This document shows positions 2,728 through 51,566 of a stretch of DNA of 64,000 nt, one piece after another (position 1 is the first letter of the stretch; each line of letters starts with the position of its first letter). A model generated the notes under the pieces. That model was not told the origin of the DNA. It worked only from the letters and a program-made list of their open reading frames with translations, and ran no database searches. A program made the translations under genes and the position numbers. The DNA comes from Acerihabitans arboris (lineage in GTDB: Bacteria; Pseudomonadota; Gammaproteobacteria; Enterobacterales; Enterobacteriaceae): NCBI RefSeq assembly GCF_010131535.1, contig NZ_WUBS01000009.1:1-64000 (forward strand). The letters are read 5' to 3'.

Positions 2728-3123
2728 ATGACCACAAAAGCTCGTATTCAGTCACGACTGAAACGCTCAAAGCGTTATGTTTTCACTCGTGACGATTTCA
2801 AAGATCTTGCTGGCTACGATCAAATTGGTAGAGCACTGCGTGAACTGGTGAAGGAAGGGCAGCTGTTGAAAGTAGGCTATGGCGTCTATACCAAAGCGCG
2901 GCAAAATGCGATTACCGGTAAGCTGATGCCTGCTGCTCCCGGAGGTTCTGCTGCGGTAGTGATTGAGGCGTTGGAACGTCTGAAAGTGGATTACCGCTTG
3001 GTTGGGGCAACAAGCGCCTATAATAGCGGTAAATCCACCCAGATCCCCGCTTCACTGGAAATCAAAACCTCGCCACGTTTTAAGAGAACATTGTCAGTAG
3101 GGAACAGTAAATTAAATGGATGA
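2728..3123 (+). CDS. AbiEi/DUF6088-like antitoxin-transcriptional regulator
   Basis: 131 residues with a strong AAAGGAGG ribosome site. The N-terminal half is a winged-helix-like domain (KRYVFTRDDFKDLAGYDQIGRALRELVKEGQLLKVGYGVYTKA), typical of DUF6088/AbiEi proteins that repress their own operon and neutralise an AbiEii nucleotidyltransferase. The C-terminal half carries the segment GGSAAVVIEALERL followed by a short basic tail. The stop overlaps the next gene by 8 bases, so the two are translationally coupled. Family assignment rests on sequence look and gene order, which agree. Confidence 0.82.
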   Translation: MTTKARIQSRLKRSKRYVFTRDDFKDLAGYDQIGRALRELVKEGQLLKVGYGVYTKARQNAITGKLMPAAPGGSAAVVIEALERLKVDYRLVGATSAYNSGKSTQIPASLEIKTSPRFKRTLSVGNSKLNG

Positions 3124-3883
3124 TTTAACAAAGCTATTCCCGGACGTTGCCGATGCTCTGGGCATTGAATCCGTTGCAATTGTAGAAAAAGATTATTACA
3201 TCGTTGAGTTATTGCGATTGCTCCAGCCTCTGGCTTTTGATACGCATCAACTGGTTTTTGCCGGTGGAACTGCATTGTCAAAAGCGGGGATATCTTTGAA
3301 CAGGATGTCAGAGGACGTGGACATTAAGCTTGCCCCCATCGCCGGTTTTTCCCTGCAATATTCCAGAAATCAGTGTAAAAATATCCGTAAAGGTATTATT
3401 AAGACCATCACCGAAACGATTGTAGCTTCAGGTATGTTTAGCATGGATGAGGAGTACCCAAAGGTTACTCGTGATGAAAACCGCTATAATGAAATTCCGG
3501 TGCGTTACCCGCAGAAATATGCACAAGCTCCCTGCTTAAGGCCATTTATCAAACTGGAACTAATGGAAACGGATTTGCTTGAGGCTGCGGAAAACCGTTC
3601 TATTAGCTCACTGATAATGGATCTAACAAAGAAGGGTGAAGTAGTGAGGGCTTTTCCCTGCGCCACTATCGCCAGCACGCAGGCTGAAAAGCTGATTTCG
3701 ATGATGCGCAGAACGGCTGCAAGCATGCGTGATGTGGAACGTGCAGTGGATGAGTCACTGGTGCGTCATATCTACGACAATTTTTGTATTGTTAGAGAAA
3801 AAGGTGCTGACGTTCCTGTTTTGAAGCACTTCGTGCAGGAATGCATTGAGCAGGATATTGAACGTTACGGTAACCGCGTCTGA
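3116..3883 (+). CDS. AbiEii/AbiGii-family nucleotidyltransferase toxin
   Basis: 255 residues. The nucleotidyltransferase signature is clear: FAGGTALSKAG, then SEDVDIKL with the metal-binding Asp pair about 20 residues on. AbiEii toxins modify RNA (tRNA acceptor ends in characterised members) using NTPs, and the upstream protein acts as antitoxin in a type IV-like arrangement. The usual length is closer to 280-310 residues. The ORF ends four bases before an IS66 relic in the same frame, so a C-terminal trim by the insertion is possible. The active site is intact. Confidence 0.83.
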   Translation: MDDLTKLFPDVADALGIESVAIVEKDYYIVELLRLLQPLAFDTHQLVFAGGTALSKAGISLNRMSEDVDIKLAPIAGFSLQYSRNQCKNIRKGIIKTITETIVASGMFSMDEEYPKVTRDENRYNEIPVRYPQKYAQAPCLRPFIKLELMETDLLEAAENRSISSLIMDLTKKGEVVRAFPCATIASTQAEKLISMMRRTAASMRDVERAVDESLVRHIYDNFCIVREKGADVPVLKHFVQECIEQDIERYGNRV

Positions 3884-37037: not shown

Positions 37038-37553
37038 TTAATGTAATTTTAAAAAAAATATATTACGGGTAATTTTGTCGTTTAACGGCAGATACAACGC
37101 ATATTCATTTTTTTCAAATGGGTAGAAACCATACTTTATATAAAATGATTTGGCTTGGCGATCCTTTACTTCGACATTAATAGCCCAAACGCCAAGGGCG
37201 GAATTAATGGTGTTGAAAATGGCATCGACGATAAGCGAGCCGCCGAGCCCCTTCCCCTGGTGGTTAACATCGATTGCCAGCCTGCCAAGCAGGGCGGTGG
37301 GCACGGTTGGGTAGCGCGGCAATTCACTGGTGGCGGATGCCGCCAGGGCATTGATATTGACCGCATAGGACGAGAGGGTATAAAACCCCAGGATGTTATC
37401 CCCGTCGTCAGCGGCGACATAACATTTGGTAAACCGTTCCTGGTGATCATTCCCGGCATAGATTGCCAGATAGTGGTTCAGGCCGGGAACACCGCAATCA
37501 AAACCCTGCTTATTATGGCGCTTTGAGATTAGCGTGTAGCTCAGGCTGCGCAT
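37038..37553 (-). CDS. GNAT-type toxin (TacT/AtaT-like)
   Basis: 171 residues: CGVPGLNHYLAIYAGNDHQERFTKCYVA, then LLGRLAIDVNHQGKGLGGSLI (acetyl-CoA loop) and the late Tyr in SFYIKYGFYPFEKN. This class acetylates the amino group of aminoacyl-tRNA and stops translation. The start shares one base with the stop of the DUF1778 antitoxin gene (TAATG). A lysine/phenylalanine-rich extension after the core (FFLKLH) is unremarkable. Confidence 0.9.
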   Translation of the reverse strand: MRSLSYTLISKRHNKQGFDCGVPGLNHYLAIYAGNDHQERFTKCYVAADDGDNILGFYTLSSYAVNINALAASATSELPRYPTVPTALLGRLAIDVNHQGKGLGGSLIVDAIFNTINSALGVWAINVEVKDRQAKSFYIKYGFYPFEKNEYALYLPLNDKITRNIFFLKLH

Positions 37554-37822
37554 TATTTTTTGCCAAACTCCTTGCGCCGGCCCATGGCGCGCAGCAGGGC
37601 GGTGGGGGGATCGCGATCTTCCAGCAATGTTTCGGCAAACTTCAGCTGATCTTCCATGGCCAACTGAAGGACCGCCGTTTCTTCTATCGCGCGCTTGGCG
37701 GCGTCGTGCGTCGCCGTGATGATAAAGTCTGTCATGGATATTCCTTGCAGCCCGGCGGCATGTTTTATTAACACATGCAGCTCAAGCGGGATACGGGCTT
37801 CAAGCCTGGCGGTTGTTGCCAT
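37553..37822 (-). CDS. DUF1778 (TacA-like) antitoxin
   Basis: 89 residues from ATG 37822 (AGAGGGG upstream; the longer open frame lacks a ribosome site). N-terminal ribbon-helix-helix (TARLEARIPLELHVLIKHAA, then GISMTDFIITATHDAAKRAI) for DNA binding and a C-terminal flexible part that neutralises the GNAT toxin. Autorepression with the toxin as corepressor is the family norm. Confidence 0.9.
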   Translation of the reverse strand: MATTARLEARIPLELHVLIKHAAGLQGISMTDFIITATHDAAKRAIEETAVLQLAMEDQLKFAETLLEDRDPPTALLRAMGRRKEFGKK

Positions 37823-38139
37823 GATCACCCCTCTTTTTAAACCGGCAATCTGCCGTACAAGAAATAGACCTAAGCAAGGATTATAATAACATTTAAAGAC
37901 GGAAATCACCGACTGTACATTTTATAGTTATAATAAAAATCGTTGCAAAATATTTTATATTAATTAGTTATTTTAATCATTCTTATATTAATTAAATTTT
38001 ATATAAAATGATGGAATTACAGTAAATATCTAAAATATTTTGGTTGTTAAAATGGCGTAGCCATCCGTCGGCGCGGCAATAACCGCGCCGCCCGGGCCTT
38101 TTGGCGTGATTCGGGGCGGCGCTCATCAAATACCTCCCA

Positions 38140-44722: not shown

Positions 44723-44754
44723 ACATCAAGGGGCTGGTGACAGCCCCTTGATGT
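44723..44754 (+). terminator. Terminator of the tkt-PTS operon
   Basis: ACATCAAGGGGCT (44723-44735) and AGCCCCTTGATGT (44742-44754), a perfect 13-bp stem with 6-base loop, 20 bases behind the EIIC stop. The U-run is short, but placement is typical. Confidence 0.75.
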
Positions 44755-44961
44755 ATAAAATATGAAGCTGATGCGCTTCTCCTCGCAGTAGCGACACGGC
44801 AGGGTCGGTTTGCACTTGCGTTACATGTAACTATTTCGTCTGACCTTTTTTCCGAACATCCTTCAGTTTCACTATTACCGGTGACCAGCGCGCTGAGAAT
44901 CACACCGCTTTTTCGCGTTCAGCTCGATTTATCAATTTTAATTAAAAGGCCTGCTCGGCTT

Positions 44962-46413
44962 TTAGTTCTTCCGAAGAGGTGTTGTTCCGCCTTTTTTTAG
45001 CATCATAGCGGCGATACGGAATAGATCGGGAATATCAACACGGCCATCAGCACGATATTCCATAAGTCCAATTTTTTCCATTGCTTCAGTTAAGGCTAAT
45101 GCCTCAAATTTGAATTTACCATTATATAAATCTGGTGGAAAAGGAGGAAGAAAACCTCCTTCAGGAGAGCGTGACGCCTCCATAATAACGGGTATAGTAT
45201 CACTATCGCGCCAGCGCTTGAACATGTCTTCTTTTTTACAAGGCAAACTTAATCCAGCCAATGGTGCTAATGCTCTTTTCACCCATTGATACTCAAGGCT
45301 TAATTGGTCAACTCTCACTTTTGAAGCTTCACGAAGCCCATGCCGAATACCTTCAGCTGATAAAATTTTTGCAGGGGCTATAGTGCCAACTTTAGCAGCC
45401 TCAGCAAAAAGTTTTATGAAGCTTCTTGGTGTTACATTACCGTTGGCGTCAGCAAGATGTTTATAAGGCCAATCGTAGGTACCACCCTTTTTAAAATTCT
45501 TACCCATGTACGGTCCCGTTAGTTGGGTCATCATGTTTTTTTGTAAATCTTTATCAAAAACAAGAGACCAAGATCGCCTATTTTTATGTGATAAGTTTTT
45601 AAAAGGAGCGCCAATTAAAGCGGACAACTTATGAAAGTCCTTGGCATATTCAGCGTAAGCTAACCGGGAAAATAATAGACCATATAATTCTACTTGGGAC
45701 CATTCAAGTTCAATTCGCGAACTTCTTAATTTAGGTATTTCGACGAACCTAAGCGATTCATCATTTAGTTGCTCGGGACGGATGAATATTTTCGCTTTAA
45801 TGCGTTTACGTGCGCGCAGCCCCCATGCAACTTCGAATAATGCATCTAATAATAATGTTGAGCGTCCCCATTCTTTTGACAAACGATCAAGTGCGTCAAA
45901 AGTAATTAAAAGAGTACGGCCGATTTTTTCTAATTTGACATCTAGTTTATCAAAATAAACTTCAATTTTTTCTGGGTTAGCATACCTTTCCATTATTTCA
46001 GATAACTGTAAATCTTTACTGGATAGTTGCTTTTCAACAGACCTAATGATCGCTGCTTGCCAGAATGCATAGCCAACAGAATTTTCTTTACCTTTGGGTA
46101 CAAGAGAATCTATTATAAGAGGGGAAATAAATCCATCATAGCCAGTTGTTACAATAAGATTATCAAGGCCTAAATTAGGGTAGGCCTCGGATGCAACAAT
46201 TCTCGTCTCATTCTGGGACAAAACGCCTGCCCAAAAGCTTTTGCCTGTGCCTCTGGCCCCTACTACGACACTAGTATTTGGGTCTAAGGCATTTGCGTGC
46301 TGCTCAGGAGCAAATATTTCATCAACTGTTGGCTTATGTTCGCCACTGGCATCATGATCGGAAGGAAGACGACTTAGTGACTCTCTTATTGCTATGTAAT
46401 TGATATCACTCAT
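44962..46413 (-). CDS. P-loop ATPase of Sll1717-like family
   Basis: About 483 residues from ATG 46413, which overlaps the end of the ParA-like gene by eight bases. Walker A TSVVVGARGTGKSFWAGVL near residue 55 and a hydrophobic strand ending LLITFDALDRLSKEWG as Walker B and sensor region of a STAND/AAA-like NTPase. The C-terminal 250 residues are winged-helix-rich (RSWSLVFDKDLQKNMM, then KFKFEALALTEAMEKIGLMEYR). Such NTPases often act as switches in bacterial conflict systems. AT-rich; last gene of a three-gene operon. Confidence 0.8.
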   Translation of the reverse strand: MSDINYIAIRESLSRLPSDHDASGEHKPTVDEIFAPEQHANALDPNTSVVVGARGTGKSFWAGVLSQNETRIVASEAYPNLGLDNLIVTTGYDGFISPLIIDSLVPKGKENSVGYAFWQAAIIRSVEKQLSSKDLQLSEIMERYANPEKIEVYFDKLDVKLEKIGRTLLITFDALDRLSKEWGRSTLLLDALFEVAWGLRARKRIKAKIFIRPEQLNDESLRFVEIPKLRSSRIELEWSQVELYGLLFSRLAYAEYAKDFHKLSALIGAPFKNLSHKNRRSWSLVFDKDLQKNMMTQLTGPYMGKNFKKGGTYDWPYKHLADANGNVTPRSFIKLFAEAAKVGTIAPAKILSAEGIRHGLREASKVRVDQLSLEYQWVKRALAPLAGLSLPCKKEDMFKRWRDSDTIPVIMEASRSPEGGFLPPFPPDLYNGKFKFEALALTEAMEKIGLMEYRADGRVDIPDLFRIAAMMLKKGGTTPLRKN

Positions 46414-47797
46414 TAAAATTATCATCCACGATACTTTCGCTGACTATTGTGCGAACTCTTTCAAGTAAAGGACCGAAAGTAACAGTATATACACTTTCGG
46501 AAAGTGAATCACTATCAGCTAAAGGGTTAAAATTTTGAAAACGGTTATCGTCTAAAATAGGGATCACTGGATTTATTTTATCATCTATATCAATATTTTC
46601 AATATCTGTTAACAATTGAGTGTCAGCTTCATTCCAATCCATCTCGAACGTGTCTTTTAATGAAGACACATCGATGTCATTTTCAGGCATTTTATCAATG
46701 AAATAATCAATAATTTTTTGCTCTATTAACTGAGAAAATTTTTCTCTTTCTTTGGATTTTTCTTGGGCCTTGGCATGAACAAAATGTAATTTATTGGCCC
46801 AAGAGATATTGTTTTTGCTAAATGTAGATAAATGAGAAAATAATAATTCATAGCCTGTTATCGTTTGGGGTTGATCAATGCCAAAGCAAAAAATATCCGC
46901 ATTCAGTCCTACCATTGCGGAAGCTGTGGTTTCATGTAAACCACTTCGCGCATCAATAAGGATGACATCATAATTACCTGAAAGAGAGAAAAACCCGATC
47001 AAATCATCCATATAATCCATGAATGATTTTATGATGCCATCACTGTTCTTTGAAAGATATGCCCGCGCGATTTTACTTAAAACATTTTGCGGATATTCTA
47101 AACAGTTTCTACCCAGGGCTGGTACAACGTCTACTCTCCCTCTTCCTTGAGATATCCATGAAGGCCCCATAATATCGATAAAAAAATCCGCGCCAAGCTC
47201 ATAAAGATTTTTCTCAACAAAATAGTCCAACAGACCATAGATGGGCAATACATCTTCTTTTAAAAGCATATTACCAAGACCAGGAGCTTCTAAGTCCATA
47301 TCAATGGCTAAAACACGTTTACCAGACCTCGACAAAGCCGCTGCAACAACACAAAGAGCAGTAGAACGTCCTACGCCACCCTTAACACTGGAGAAGACGA
47401 TTTTTGCGGTTTTGGGTGATAGATTTTTTTTAGGATCTCTTAACCAGTCAGCTCCAATAAGCCTCCGCTCAAAAAGAAGTACAGAACCAGTAAATTCAGT
47501 ACTTTCAATTTTAACTTCGCTAGCTATCGATATATCTTTTAAAGTATCATCAAATAATTCGTCTGCGGTAGTAAGTGCAAAACCATCATGGCCAACATAA
47601 TTCCCGAGCAAACGCGCTATTTTTTTCGAAAGCTTTACTCTCTTGTCCGATGTTATCCTAAAGTCGAGTACAATAAAAGAAAGAACTCCAGTTGCGTCAC
47701 GGAGAAAAAAATTATTTTTCAAATATTCCGAGCCAAGCTCTTTTTGTATAAACTTTGCAAATAGCGGTAAAGAATTATCAAAGTAAATATTTTTCAT
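46406..47797 (-). CDS. KGGVGR-variant ParA/MinD-like ATPase
   Basis: 463 residues. An N-terminal part of about 130 residues of unknown fold precedes a ParA/SIMIBI core: deviant Walker A VKGGVGRSTAL, then LAIDMDLEAPGLGNML (Walker A' and switch), and VILIDARSGLHETTASAMV. The Arg in KGGVGR in place of KGGVGK is a recognised variant. The C-terminal 120 residues are acidic. It is not linked to a parB or plasmid origin, so chromosome or plasmid partition is unlikely; a regulatory NTPase in a defence or signalling operon fits better. Its ATG shares one base with the upstream stop. Confidence 0.85.
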   Translation of the reverse strand: MKNIYFDNSLPLFAKFIQKELGSEYLKNNFFLRDATGVLSFIVLDFRITSDKRVKLSKKIARLLGNYVGHDGFALTTADELFDDTLKDISIASEVKIESTEFTGSVLLFERRLIGADWLRDPKKNLSPKTAKIVFSSVKGGVGRSTALCVVAAALSRSGKRVLAIDMDLEAPGLGNMLLKEDVLPIYGLLDYFVEKNLYELGADFFIDIMGPSWISQGRGRVDVVPALGRNCLEYPQNVLSKIARAYLSKNSDGIIKSFMDYMDDLIGFFSLSGNYDVILIDARSGLHETTASAMVGLNADIFCFGIDQPQTITGYELLFSHLSTFSKNNISWANKLHFVHAKAQEKSKEREKFSQLIEQKIIDYFIDKMPENDIDVSSLKDTFEMDWNEADTQLLTDIENIDIDDKINPVIPILDDNRFQNFNPLADSDSLSESVYTVTFGPLLERVRTIVSESIVDDNFNE

Positions 47798-48141
47798 TAT
47801 AGCCGCTCCTTAATGCCTGAAGCTCCCATTAAACGAGTAGTCTCTTTTATCCATAAATCTACTTCTTCTGATGTAGTATTGCCAGAAGCATGATACCGTC
47901 TATTTACATCCCAACCATTCAGTATTTTACTGTCTAAAATCATTAGCATACCAATTTCTGATCTACTATTAAGTCTTTTCCTAGCAGCCTCGATTAATTG
48001 GGGGAAATGTACTTTAGGGTTATCAATACCCCCGCCTAAGGTACTTATTTTGTATTTTATTGCGCATTCGGCCGCAAAACCTATTAAATAACCAGCATTG
48101 TCTAACGAGTCGCTAGCCTTCAAATTTTTTGCATCTTTCAA
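47797..48141 (-). CDS. HEPN-like domain protein, start uncertain
   Basis: 114 residues from the only in-frame start, TTG 48141, without a ribosome site. LKDAKNLKASDSLDNAGYLI and GFAAECAIKYKI resemble the first helices of HEPN domains, and WDVNRRYHASG the late part; a canonical Rx4-6H RNase motif is not present. The reading frame continues upstream with HEPN-like residues (ESVEDYQSAAIRHL), and an ATG at 48205 reads eight codons to a stop one base out of frame. So the true N-terminus is probably longer, via frameshift or sequencing error. First gene of the operon. Confidence 0.6.
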   Translation of the reverse strand: MKDAKNLKASDSLDNAGYLIGFAAECAIKYKISTLGGGIDNPKVHFPQLIEAARKRLNSRSEIGMLMILDSKILNGWDVNRRYHASGNTTSEEVDLWIKETTRLMGASGIKERL

Positions 48142-48205
48142 ATGTCTAATTGCTGCGCTTTGATAGTCTTCGACTGATTCACTCCAGCAACTTATTATTC
48201 TGCAT

Positions 48206-48704
48206 TTTCTTGCTTTCTAATATGACATATCTACTGATCCTAGCAAAATTTTTTCTCAAAATTTGTTGCTGCGCAATGCTTTTCCCGCCACGCCTGTCCG
48301 CGATAGGTAACGTTTTCTATGCATATATTCGGGATCACTTCTGCTACTCCACTGCAGGCTCATAAGCGACAATCGCGACTTGCAATTCACATTCACTGAT
48401 GCGCGGGAATGCCAACTGCGACCAACTCATGTACACGAGTTGAGTGAAGTTAATATGAGGCACTCAAGTGCCAAACCTGTTAAAGATCAGCTCGGGATAA
48501 GCAAGGGCTTTCCAGTGACGGATCAAACGAAATCTGCCTTGCAATACTCGCAACATGAAAATTCCCTTGATATAGGTGATTACCACTAATAGTGGAAGAG
48601 AAATACTTTCCGCTACATTATAGCCGTTTACTTATCCAGTCCTTACACAGGGATAGTTAAGCTCCGATCATCTGATAAGCAACCTAACCACCCTCTATCA
48701 ATCC
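48206..48704. other. Region upstream of the HEPN operon, no gene
   Basis: Open frames exist but none carries a domain or ribosome site. The dyad CAACTC-N8-GAGTTG (48423-48442) is a candidate control site. Confidence 0.4.
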
Positions 48705-48878: not shown

Positions 48879-49173
48879 AGCGCACCTCTATAGAATTGAG
48901 GGACATTTTTGCGCATGAATGAAACAAAGAAGTAGCCATAAAGCAAGCCTCCATTGGGTAACTTACAAAGCCACCACCAGAGACGCCAGGCTCATTGGGT
49001 GGTAGCCCGAACAAGGTTGGCGTACCGGCCCCAATGACTGCCGGTCTTCCTTGCGGAAGCCTTGCCCGGGCCACCATTGAAGCTTGGTAAACACGAGCTG
49101 TGCCTTTAAATGAACACGCAAAACATGCGTGTTCGGGCACCATTGGGGGATTCGGAACGCCAATTCCGGCCAC
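48871..49173 (-). CDS. Hypothetical protein upstream of the 57-residue gene
   Basis: 100 residues from GTG 49173, the first start after an in-frame stop; an ATG ten codons later is an alternative. Contains a CFACSF motif, a Gly/Pro-rich centre (GAGTPTLFGLPPNEPGVSGGGF) and a Cys near the end. No ribosome site is obvious and the codon use is plain, so it may be the 3' part of an older gene. Support comes mainly from the overlap with the next small ORF. Confidence 0.4.
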   Translation of the reverse strand: MAGIGVPNPPMVPEHACFACSFKGTARVYQASMVARARLPQGRPAVIGAGTPTLFGLPPNEPGVSGGGFVSYPMEACFMATSLFHSCAKMSLNSIEVRYV

Positions 49174-49397: not shown

Positions 49398-51566
49398 TTA
49401 TTTCCTGGTTTTTCCTGCCGTCTTTCCCCCCGACCGTGCCGGCTTACTCCCAGCCGCCCGCGCCCCCATTGCCGTAAACCGGGTTAACGCCGGTCTAACC
49501 CCGCGATCCCGGTTTTTTCCCGCCCTGAGCTCTTCCGCCGTTACCGGTGGAACCAAACACTCCCCACGGTTGCCGATCAGCTGCCGCATCCCCATCGCCG
49601 CCAGCGCTTCGCGTATCAGCGGCCAGTTGGCCGGGTCGTGGTAACGCAGCAGCGCTTTATGCAATCGCCGCTGGCGGTCGCCCTTGGGCACTTCCACCTC
49701 TTCACTGTTATAATCCACTTTCGCCAGCGGGTTTTTGCCGCTGTAATACATGGTGGTGGAGCTGGCGAGGGGCGAGGGGTAAAAGTTTTGCACCTGGTTC
49801 AACCGGAATCGATTTTTCTTCAGCCACAGCGCCAGGTTCACCATATCCTCGTCGCGGGTGCCGGGGTGCGCCGAGATAAAATAGGGGATCAGGTATTGCT
49901 CCTTGCCCGCCTGCCGGGAATAGGTGTCAAACAGCTGCTTAAAGCGCTGATAGCTGCCCATGCCCGGTTTCATCATTTTTGATAACGGCCCGGTTTCGGT
50001 ATGCTCCGGCGCTATTTTCAGGTAACCGCCGACATGGTGCTCCGCCAGTTCCTTGATATAACGCGGGTCTTCCACCGCCAGGTCATAACGCACGCCAGAG
50101 GCAATCAGGATCTTTTTAATCCCTTTCAGCGAACGTGCGCGACGATAGAGCCTGATGGTCGGCTCATGGTTGGTATCCATATGCGTACAAATTTCAGGAT
50201 AAACGCATGACGCCCGGCGGCAGGTCTGCTCCGCGCGCGGCGATTGGCAGCGCAGCATATACATATTGGCGGTCGGTCCGCCCAGATCGGAGATCACGCC
50301 GGTAAAACCGGGGACGCTGTCGCGGATTTCCTCGATTTCCCGCACAATGGAGTTTTCGGAACGGCTTTGGATAATCCGCCCCTCGTGTTCGGTAATGGAA
50401 CAAAACGCGCAGCCGCCGTAGCAGCCGCGCATGATATTAACCGAAAAGCGGATCATATCGTAGGCCGGGATAGCGGTATTCGCATAGGCCGGATGCGGCA
50501 CGCGCTGGTACGGCAGGGCAAATACCGAGTCCATTTCCCCGGTCAGCAACGGGATGGCCGGCGGGTTGATCCACACATAACGATCGCCATGCTTTTGCAT
50601 CAGGGCGCGGGCGCAGCCGGGGTTGGTTTCGTGATGCAGGATGCGCGAGGCATGGGCATACATCACCTTGTCATTCTTGACCTTTTCATACGAGGGCAGC
50701 AGTACGTAGGTCTTTTCCCAGGGTTTGGGCGCCCTCACGCTGACGGGGTTGGGGGCGTATGCTTTTACCGTCCGCGTGGTACAGGGCAGGTCGTCGCCAT
50801 AGGGATTAAGGATGGGGTCGATACGTCCCGGCGTATCCAGGCGGCTGGAATCGACGCCGGTCCAGCCGGGCAGCGCCGTTTTACGCAATACGGCGGTATT
50901 GCGCACGTCGTTTATCTCGCTGATAGGTTCGCCCGCCGCCAGCCGATGGGCCACTTCAACCAGCGGGCGCTCGCCGTTGCCGTAGATCAGCATATCGGCC
51001 TTGGCATCCACCAGCACTGAACGGCGCACGGTATCGGACCAGTAATCGTAATGGGCGATACGCCGCAGGCTGGCCTCGATGCCGCCCAGCAATACCGGCA
51101 CATCGCCGAATGCTTCCTTGCAGCGCTGGGTGTAGACCAGCGTGGCGCGGTCCGGGCGTTTACCCGCCACATTGCCCGGCGTATAGGCATCGTCATGGCG
51201 CGCTTTCCTATCCGCCGTGTAGTGGTTGATCATCGAGTCCATATTGCCGGCCGTGACGCCAAAAAATAGGTTCGGTTTGCCCAGGCGCATAAAGTCCGCT
51301 TTGTGGGTCCAAAGAGGCTGGGCGATGATGCCGACCCTAAAACCCTGCGCCTCCAGCATCCGGCCGACGATCGCCATGCCAAAACTTGGGTGATCGACAT
51401 AGGCATCGCCGGTGACCAGGATGATATCGCAGCTGTCCCAGCCCAGTCGGTCCATCTCAGCGCGGGACATGGGCAGGAACGGCGCGGTGCCAAAACATTC
51501 GGCCCAGTAAAGCGGATAGGAAAACAGCTGGCGTTCGGGGGTGATCAGGCTTGTCGGCACGGGCAA
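49398..51566 (-). CDS. ygiQ: YgiQ-family radical SAM protein
   Basis: 722 residues, full length. N-terminal YgiQ domain ([30 protein letters not shown]) and radical SAM core with the CxxxCxxC cluster site in [18 protein letters not shown]. The C-terminal part has [10 protein letters not shown] and [20 protein letters not shown]. The Lys/Gly-rich tail ([20 protein letters not shown]) is typical for enterobacterial members. Function is unknown; it is a conserved core gene that marks the chromosomal backbone beside the AT-rich insert. Confidence 0.95.

Follow-up and report, generated by a model that had tools for sequence, protein, structure and literature searches.

What are three overlapping genes of low guanine-plus-cytosine (GC) content doing between a phosphotransferase system (PTS) gene and ygiQ in the genome of Acerihabitans arboris? 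We analysed the full 64,000-nucleotide stretch at positions 1-64,000 of contig NZ_WUBS01000009.1, hereafter the window, whose minus strand carries at 44962-48216 three consecutive frames in the order A-B-C: an HEPN frame (A), a ParA-like ATPase with a deviant KGGVGR loop (B) and an ATPase of the Sll1717 family (C) (Table 1). An earlier note on this DNA, written from the sequence alone, had described them as low-GC genes with overlaps of eight bases and one base, and the coordinates agree with this: A and B share 1 base, and B and C share 8 bases given a start of C at Met 46413. The GC contents of A, B and C (37.5%, 35.9% and 40.0%, respectively) are also as described when compared with those of the PTS gene (54.8%), ygiQ (59.5%) and the window (53.8%). 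The long open reading frames (ORFs) and the family matches of B and C are far beyond chance.

The earlier note knew of no described system with this trio; however, PADLOC lists one under the name PDC-M28 (PADLOC-DB 2.0.0 candidate, models PDLC04557-04561). The models for all three proteins were matched, by A with 73.3 bits, by B with 281.6 bits and by C (PDLC04561) with 376.5 bits, and the genes are adjacent and on one strand. Thus the trio is already catalogued, and judged by its sequence it is a further copy of a known candidate kind. The analysis supports the proposal of the note that an HEPN protein, a deviant ParA-like protein and an Sll1717-like NTPase form one operon and a defence candidate. 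PDC-M28 is a candidate name only, to which the present analysis adds a location beside a cos site and natural fusions of B and C. Candidates of the PDC series were found by guilt-by-embedding, and validation is pending for most of those treated in the available sections of PMC12988326, where the source cited for them is the preprint of Payne et al. 2024. Our literature search (preprints not covered) found no paper on PDC-M28, on this trio or on Sll1717, and KGGVGR returned unrelated literature only.

We propose that the operon is a PDC-M28 copy which came as cargo of a P2/P4-type element, now decayed, with its place next to the cos site, and that a switch formed by B and C would release A, an HEPN RNase. 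On balance we hold this to be probable, if by no great measure.

Table 1. Features in and around the A-B-C operon of the window
Feature	Coordinates	Strand	Remarks
Gene C, Sll1717-family P-loop ATPase (PDC-M28C)	44962..46413	-	483 amino acids when started at the conserved Met; residues of the Walker A and B motifs intact
Gene B, KGGVGR-variant MinD/ParA-like ATPase (PDC-M28B)	46406..47797	-	463 amino acids; N-terminal extension of about 130 amino acids
Gene A, HEPN frame (PDC-M28A)	47797..48216	-	139 codons open from 48216; 5′ end uncertain, possibly damaged
P2/P4-type cos-like site	48271..48294	-	matches the annotated cos ends of phages 186, PSP3 and EtG at 23 of 24 bases
Small phage ORF	48705..48878	-	57 amino acids; phrog_16030, 37.4 bits
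Icd-like/Ash-family phage ORF	48874..49173	-	PF10554, 30.9 bits (cut-off 26); overlaps the C4 RNA
C4 antisense RNA	48995..49081	-	RF01695, 71.7 bits (gathering score 45, Rfam)
Inverted repeat behind the PTS gene	44723..44754		perfect 14-base arms

Conservation of the three-gene unit

When the genome collection was scanned with an alignment of C, 318 matching stretches were obtained, the best 80 of which were kept as loci, and a further 10 loci came from viral contigs. A-B-C occurred in order and on one strand in 71 of these best 80 genome loci and in all 10 viral loci (81 of 90 together), one gene being split over two frames in some of them (e.g., L069, L078 and L099). Of the genome loci without the trio, five are truncated at a contig end (L049, L058, L061, L063 and L095), and another (L060) has A and C with B broken up. 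The reverse search, made with the B model in 398 genomes, gave 19 full-length matches (at least 281 bits, window included) and 26 weaker ones (58-118 bits). Frames matching A and C were found beside all 19 full-length matches. The earlier note had named homologues scattered without each other as the finding that would speak against a single system, and these counts go mostly the other way.

We examined the neighbours of 11 of the 26 weaker B matches, the flanks of which were short. Two of them (L144 and L146) have an A-like gene nearby and a C-like part within the same protein, while neither A nor C was seen in the short flanks of eight others. Seven of those eight were scanned with Pfam, and TPR repeats were indicated in L141, L147, L148 and L149, above the cut-off in the last two. 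The locus L145 (412-2852) holds an HEPN gene and a KGGVGR-type protein of 690 amino acids, with no C in its short sequence, and could be a two-gene variant. A different linked architecture was seen in another of the seven, L150 (1444-3804), where the frame matched by the B profile also includes an Mrr-type nuclease domain and a NACHT domain.

A, B and C yielded distance matrices that agreed with one another over 97 loci (Mantel r of 0.85, 0.81 and 0.92), the largest value in 500 permutations being 0.06. This agreement fits a joint transmission of the unit, but shared host descent also contributes to it. Twenty plasmid records contained relatives of C, and 11 of the 17 regions examined (all except H3, H4 and H19) carry the trio. 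Within the family of the host itself, C matched in 8 of 392 genomes, as four trios (window included) and four distant forms. Pseudomonas lopnurensis has two trios arranged tail to tail (L067, 8308-16212). No copy was found in 5,426 complete Escherichia coli genomes by near or distant DNA search, which would miss relatives at the protein level, and a protein search of phage records with C returned no relative.

A cos site and phage remnant beside the operon

A P2/P4-type cos-like site and a phage remnant, both overlooked in the earlier note, lie upstream of the operon (Table 1), the site being 54 bases before the opening of the HEPN frame. It had no match in 825 kb of shuffled sequence and, at five mismatches or fewer, was found among the loci scanned only in the window copies, in L028 and in the phage ENT90 region. 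L028 belongs to Serratia marcescens 106R and is the closest trio relative that we found, with a C protein 66-67% identical. Its cos-like site, with 3 mismatches, stops 100 bases short of the ATG of A. Upstream of this trio there is a gpA-type replication protein (phrog_91, 376 bits; PF05840, 31.7 bits with a cut-off of 31.4), and downstream, on the other strand, a terminase gene (PF03237, PF17289), with no portal-sized ORF between trio and terminase.

In the window, the 1.2 kb upstream of the trio had matches in 235 of the 5,426 E. coli genomes; among the matches listed (15 records), all fall in this stretch and are annotated as Icd-like. In E. coli CFS3246 the matching stretch lies within an element that also carries an integrase, an antirepressor and a TOPRIM/DUF927 protein. 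Between cos and ygiQ we found no ORF of psu/int or gpA/gpQ length, the rest of the window not having been scanned for them. The C4 RNA does not appear to be a general companion of the trio, as in tests of 13 further trio loci none reached the gathering score.

Defence hotspots beside cos have been described both for P2-like phages, where they lie between gpA and gpQ, and for P4-like satellites, where the flanking genes are psu and int (Rousset et al. 2022, PMC9122126, sections on these hotspots). As in those hotspots, the trio adjoins cos in the window and in the Serratia locus, where gpA-like and terminase flanks are present as well. The trio is not, however, among the systems named in those sections, and the core phage flanks are missing beside the window trio. 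Given the cos site together with the C4/Icd region and the small ORFs near the trio, hotspot cargo is the best reading of the operon. Its carrier would be a prophage or satellite of P2/P4 type that has since decayed, leaving only the cos site, C4/Icd and small ORFs.

Other mobile and defence settings

Five trios lie within BREX type 2 clusters (L019, L020, L071, L107 and L159), namely on plasmids of Thiodictyon, Streptomyces NBC_01334 and Sphaerotilus and in Thiohalocapsa (L071) and Malikia (L107). The trio genes are distinct from the BREX core genes, and only 2 of the 80 genome loci had BREX proteins nearby. On plasmids of Agrobacterium, two Enterobacter and Paraburkholderia, a tyrosine recombinase/integrase gene is about 0.6 kb or less from the trio. 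We scanned 124 of the 134 nearest large ORFs of the 80 genome loci, ten of more than 900 amino acids having been dropped, BREX genes among them. Single neighbours match defence models such as PglZ, PtuA, GajB and HEC-06, from which we claim no enrichment. No fixed fourth gene was seen among the 124 neighbours scanned.

The HEPN gene, its start and its putative active site

The match of A to the Pfam HEPN family is only just above the cut-off (PF05168, 22.1 bits with a cut-off of 22.0), and its beginning is peculiar. The HEPN frame is open from 48216, yet it has no ATG, GTG or TTG before a TTG at 48141, the one standard start ahead of the conserved core, and this codon falls downstream of an Arg found in each of 102 rows (here and below, a row is a frame, that of the window included, which passes an E of 1e-10 and covers 70% of the profile). 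The 5′ end given at 48205 in the earlier note has to be abandoned: the ATG at 48205-48203 is out of the HEPN frame and meets a stop after eight codons (48181-48179). In the Serratia locus, A has an ATG start just ahead of the matching residues, and copies with a normal start thus exist in relatives. Since a standard start is missing where it would normally lie, A may be damaged in the window and, if so, inactive in this genome; an unusual start or a sequencing error may also explain the finding.

It is possible, if doubtful in our judgement, that the whole operon is a non-functional prophage fossil in this genome, as the start problem of A and the short phage pieces, which are all that remains beside cos, would suggest. 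However, the frames of B and C are intact and keep all conserved residues, and the irregular start may have one of the two other causes just mentioned.

Numbering residues from the frame opening at 48216, we found E50, K54, H70, R107 and Y108 of A in 103 of 103 rows, and the window copy keeps all of them. In the HEPN families discussed by Anantharaman et al. 2013 (PMC3710099, passages on AbiV and AF0298), the AbiV and AF0298-like members lack the His of the usual motif, keep its Arg and have another conserved His, placed between helices 2 and 3, which was put forward as a possible alternative RNase site. A has these features in common with them: the His of the Rx4-6H motif is absent and its Arg is kept, a second conserved His precedes the Arg motif, in a more N-terminal position, and an Ex3K is present. 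In the table of that paper, in the portion available, no NTPase partners are given for AbiV. This pattern suggests that A carries a putative AbiV-type alternative active site. Among solved structures no convincing relative of A was found, with one weak match.

The two ATPases and their natural fusions

B matched the NCBIfam family NF047398 (KGGVGR) with 168.3 bits (cut-off 90), which, with the extension listed in Table 1, confirms what the earlier note had said of its deviant loop and long N-terminal part. In the loop, K139, G140, G141, G143 and R144 occur in 107 of 107 rows and the Val in 106, and R144 is an Arg that replaces the usual P-loop Lys. D166, D168, D282, R284 and G286 were found in 106-107 of the 107 rows. 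The window copy keeps the residues of both sets.

Membership of the ParA/MinD fold and a match to the ParA-like PHROG 164 (49.5 bits) would be expected if B belonged to a ParA-type partition or positioning system of a mobile element, the other possibility raised in the earlier note, a known partition system with parB. We rejected this very improbable reading. A and C are not ParB, no ParB is annotated in the operon or in the 11 trio-bearing plasmid regions examined, and genes with a ParB domain appeared only in the vicinity of lone C genes. Furthermore, the P-loop Lys is replaced throughout, the partners of B are others and most trio loci found are on genome contigs.

C matched the Sll1717 family of NCBIfam with 76.0 bits (NF047389, cut-off 75). 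The Met at 46413, taken as its start, is shared by all 10 aligned sequences; read from the first ATG, at 46425, from which we number its residues, the protein would have 487 amino acids. G59 (120 of 120 rows), G61 and K62 (119 of 119) and D177 (120 of 120) are all kept in the window copy, and many invariant residues also lie outside the P-loop. Solved structures offered no convincing relative of C either, again with one weak match. In L105 (5012-7699) the C homologue is part of a frame of 896 amino acids whose N-terminal part, of about 450 amino acids and without a Pfam match, is possibly a fused new effector or sensor.

The four distant forms from Enterobacteriaceae are single frames of 925-936 amino acids. 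Three of them (L013, L026 and L027, the last two being the loci of L011 and L012) were shown to contain a B part as well as a C part, and the fourth, L014, was recognized by C only. An A-like gene lies beside L027 (profile E 2e-7), and none was detected beside L026. Within the close family, L127 also has B and C in a single frame, of 930 amino acids, with A adjoining. Such natural fusions argue for a joint action of B and C as a single machine.

A model for the operon and its alternatives

We infer from these features that B, a deviant ParA-type ATPase, and C, an AAA-type ATPase, would together form an ATP-driven sensor-switch. This switch would keep A silent until infection and would then release or activate it, A being in the model an HEPN RNase with the AbiV-type alternative site. 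Once activated, A would cut RNA, and the infection would be aborted.

The nearest precedent for a gene pair of this kind, in the portion of PMC3710099 available to us, is the dyad of an HEPN (MAE_18760) gene with a gene for a ParA/Soj ATPase, proposed as a toxin-antitoxin module in which the ATPase is the antitoxin. By analogy, A could be an RNase toxin, B its antitoxin and C a regulator, with the maintenance of mobile elements rather than defence as the main role, and the presence of the trio on plasmids (11 of 17 regions examined) and viral contigs (10 loci) would suit such a role. We nevertheless think this unlikely. MAE_18760 keeps the Rx4-6H motif according to that source and A does not, no MAE_18760-type HEPN match was found in Pfam for the window A, and the present unit has a third member in C. 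This ATPase is as conserved as B (mean identities of 0.35 for C and 0.33 for B) and is fused to B in relatives, so that it does not look optional, and five trios are placed inside BREX-2 clusters. The operon also differs from the HEPN/MNT toxin-antitoxin systems, as the partners of A are B and C and not an MNT nucleotidyltransferase.

Several observations weigh against the model of a B-C switch acting on an HEPN RNase. The HEPN match is weak: among 25 A members at E of 0.01 or less, PF05168 was matched by 8 and AbiV by 2. The A-like gene of L027, moreover, matched no HEPN family. The canonical Rx4-6H motif is present in only 5 of 103 rows of A. As its P-loop Lys is replaced by Arg, B may be unable to hydrolyse ATP, and MinD/ParA-like domains of other conflict systems have been predicted to be inactive (PMC7159879, in the part dealing with these domains). 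The neighbours of the trio are diverse: of the 124 scanned, at most 4 share a Pfam family and at most 3 a PADLOC family. Among trio loci the cos site (five mismatches or fewer) was seen only in the window and in L028, several of the loci being short-flanked. The idea that the three homologues always occur together holds for most loci and fails for others. In L084, L097 and L105, C stands alone in the sequence examined, and 6 of the 17 plasmid regions (L153-L157 and L161, from five Streptomyces and one Kitasatospora) have C with no A or B by profile or tblastn, the lone C of Kitasatospora being a partial match.

Some of these points would be accommodated if A were not a catalyst at all, but a nucleotide- or RNA-binding adaptor, C or B and C together being the effector, acting for example on phage DNA or on the replication complex of the phage. 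The 98 of 103 A rows without the canonical motif, the window included, the wealth of invariant residues of C beyond its P-loop and the occurrence of C alone on actinobacterial plasmids are all in line with this. On the other hand, the invariant E, K, H and R of A fit an AbiV-type site, the only Pfam match in the window C is that of an ATPase, and Pfam found no nuclease domain in the C-containing proteins of L105 and L013. Hence we consider an adaptor role of A improbable, and prefer the model in which B and C would control an RNase.

The model turns the name PDC-M28 into a three-part machine that can be tested, with defined conserved residues, natural B-C fusions and settings beside prophage cos sites and inside BREX-2 clusters. 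If it holds, it would reveal the role of KGGVGR ParA-like ATPases in immunity and whether AbiV-type HEPNs without the classical motif are RNases. We also put forward, tentatively, a broader idea: the pairing of an Arg-for-Lys ParA-type ATPase with an Sll1717 AAA ATPase might represent an infection sensor of a new class, with an AbiV-type HEPN RNase as the enzyme that it turns on, and a single module might move among P2/P4 cos hotspots, conjugative plasmids and the interiors of BREX-2 clusters as a portable back-up effector.

Borders of the operon and further features of the window

Identity to the same-genus contig G392:C189 stops at 44758, just after the PTS hairpin, and this position marks the border on the trio side. 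No clean empty site was found in the same-genus genomes compared, in which the neighbourhood differs. On the other side, the earlier note had placed the insertion next to the core gene ygiQ. The gene does adjoin the operon (49398-51566), but its core status is doubtful: the same genome has a second ygiQ on contig C3 (G000:C3:11907-13918), 81% identical to the window copy, which is thus possibly an extra, acquired one. The numbers of promoters and terminators counted were close to the mean of shuffled sequence.

Elsewhere in the window, an AbiE-type pair at 2728-3880, consisting of a DUF6088/AbiEi-like protein and an AbiEii nucleotidyltransferase, is a further defence or toxin-antitoxin candidate, and a GNAT acetyltransferase with a TacA-type antitoxin is encoded at 37041-37909.

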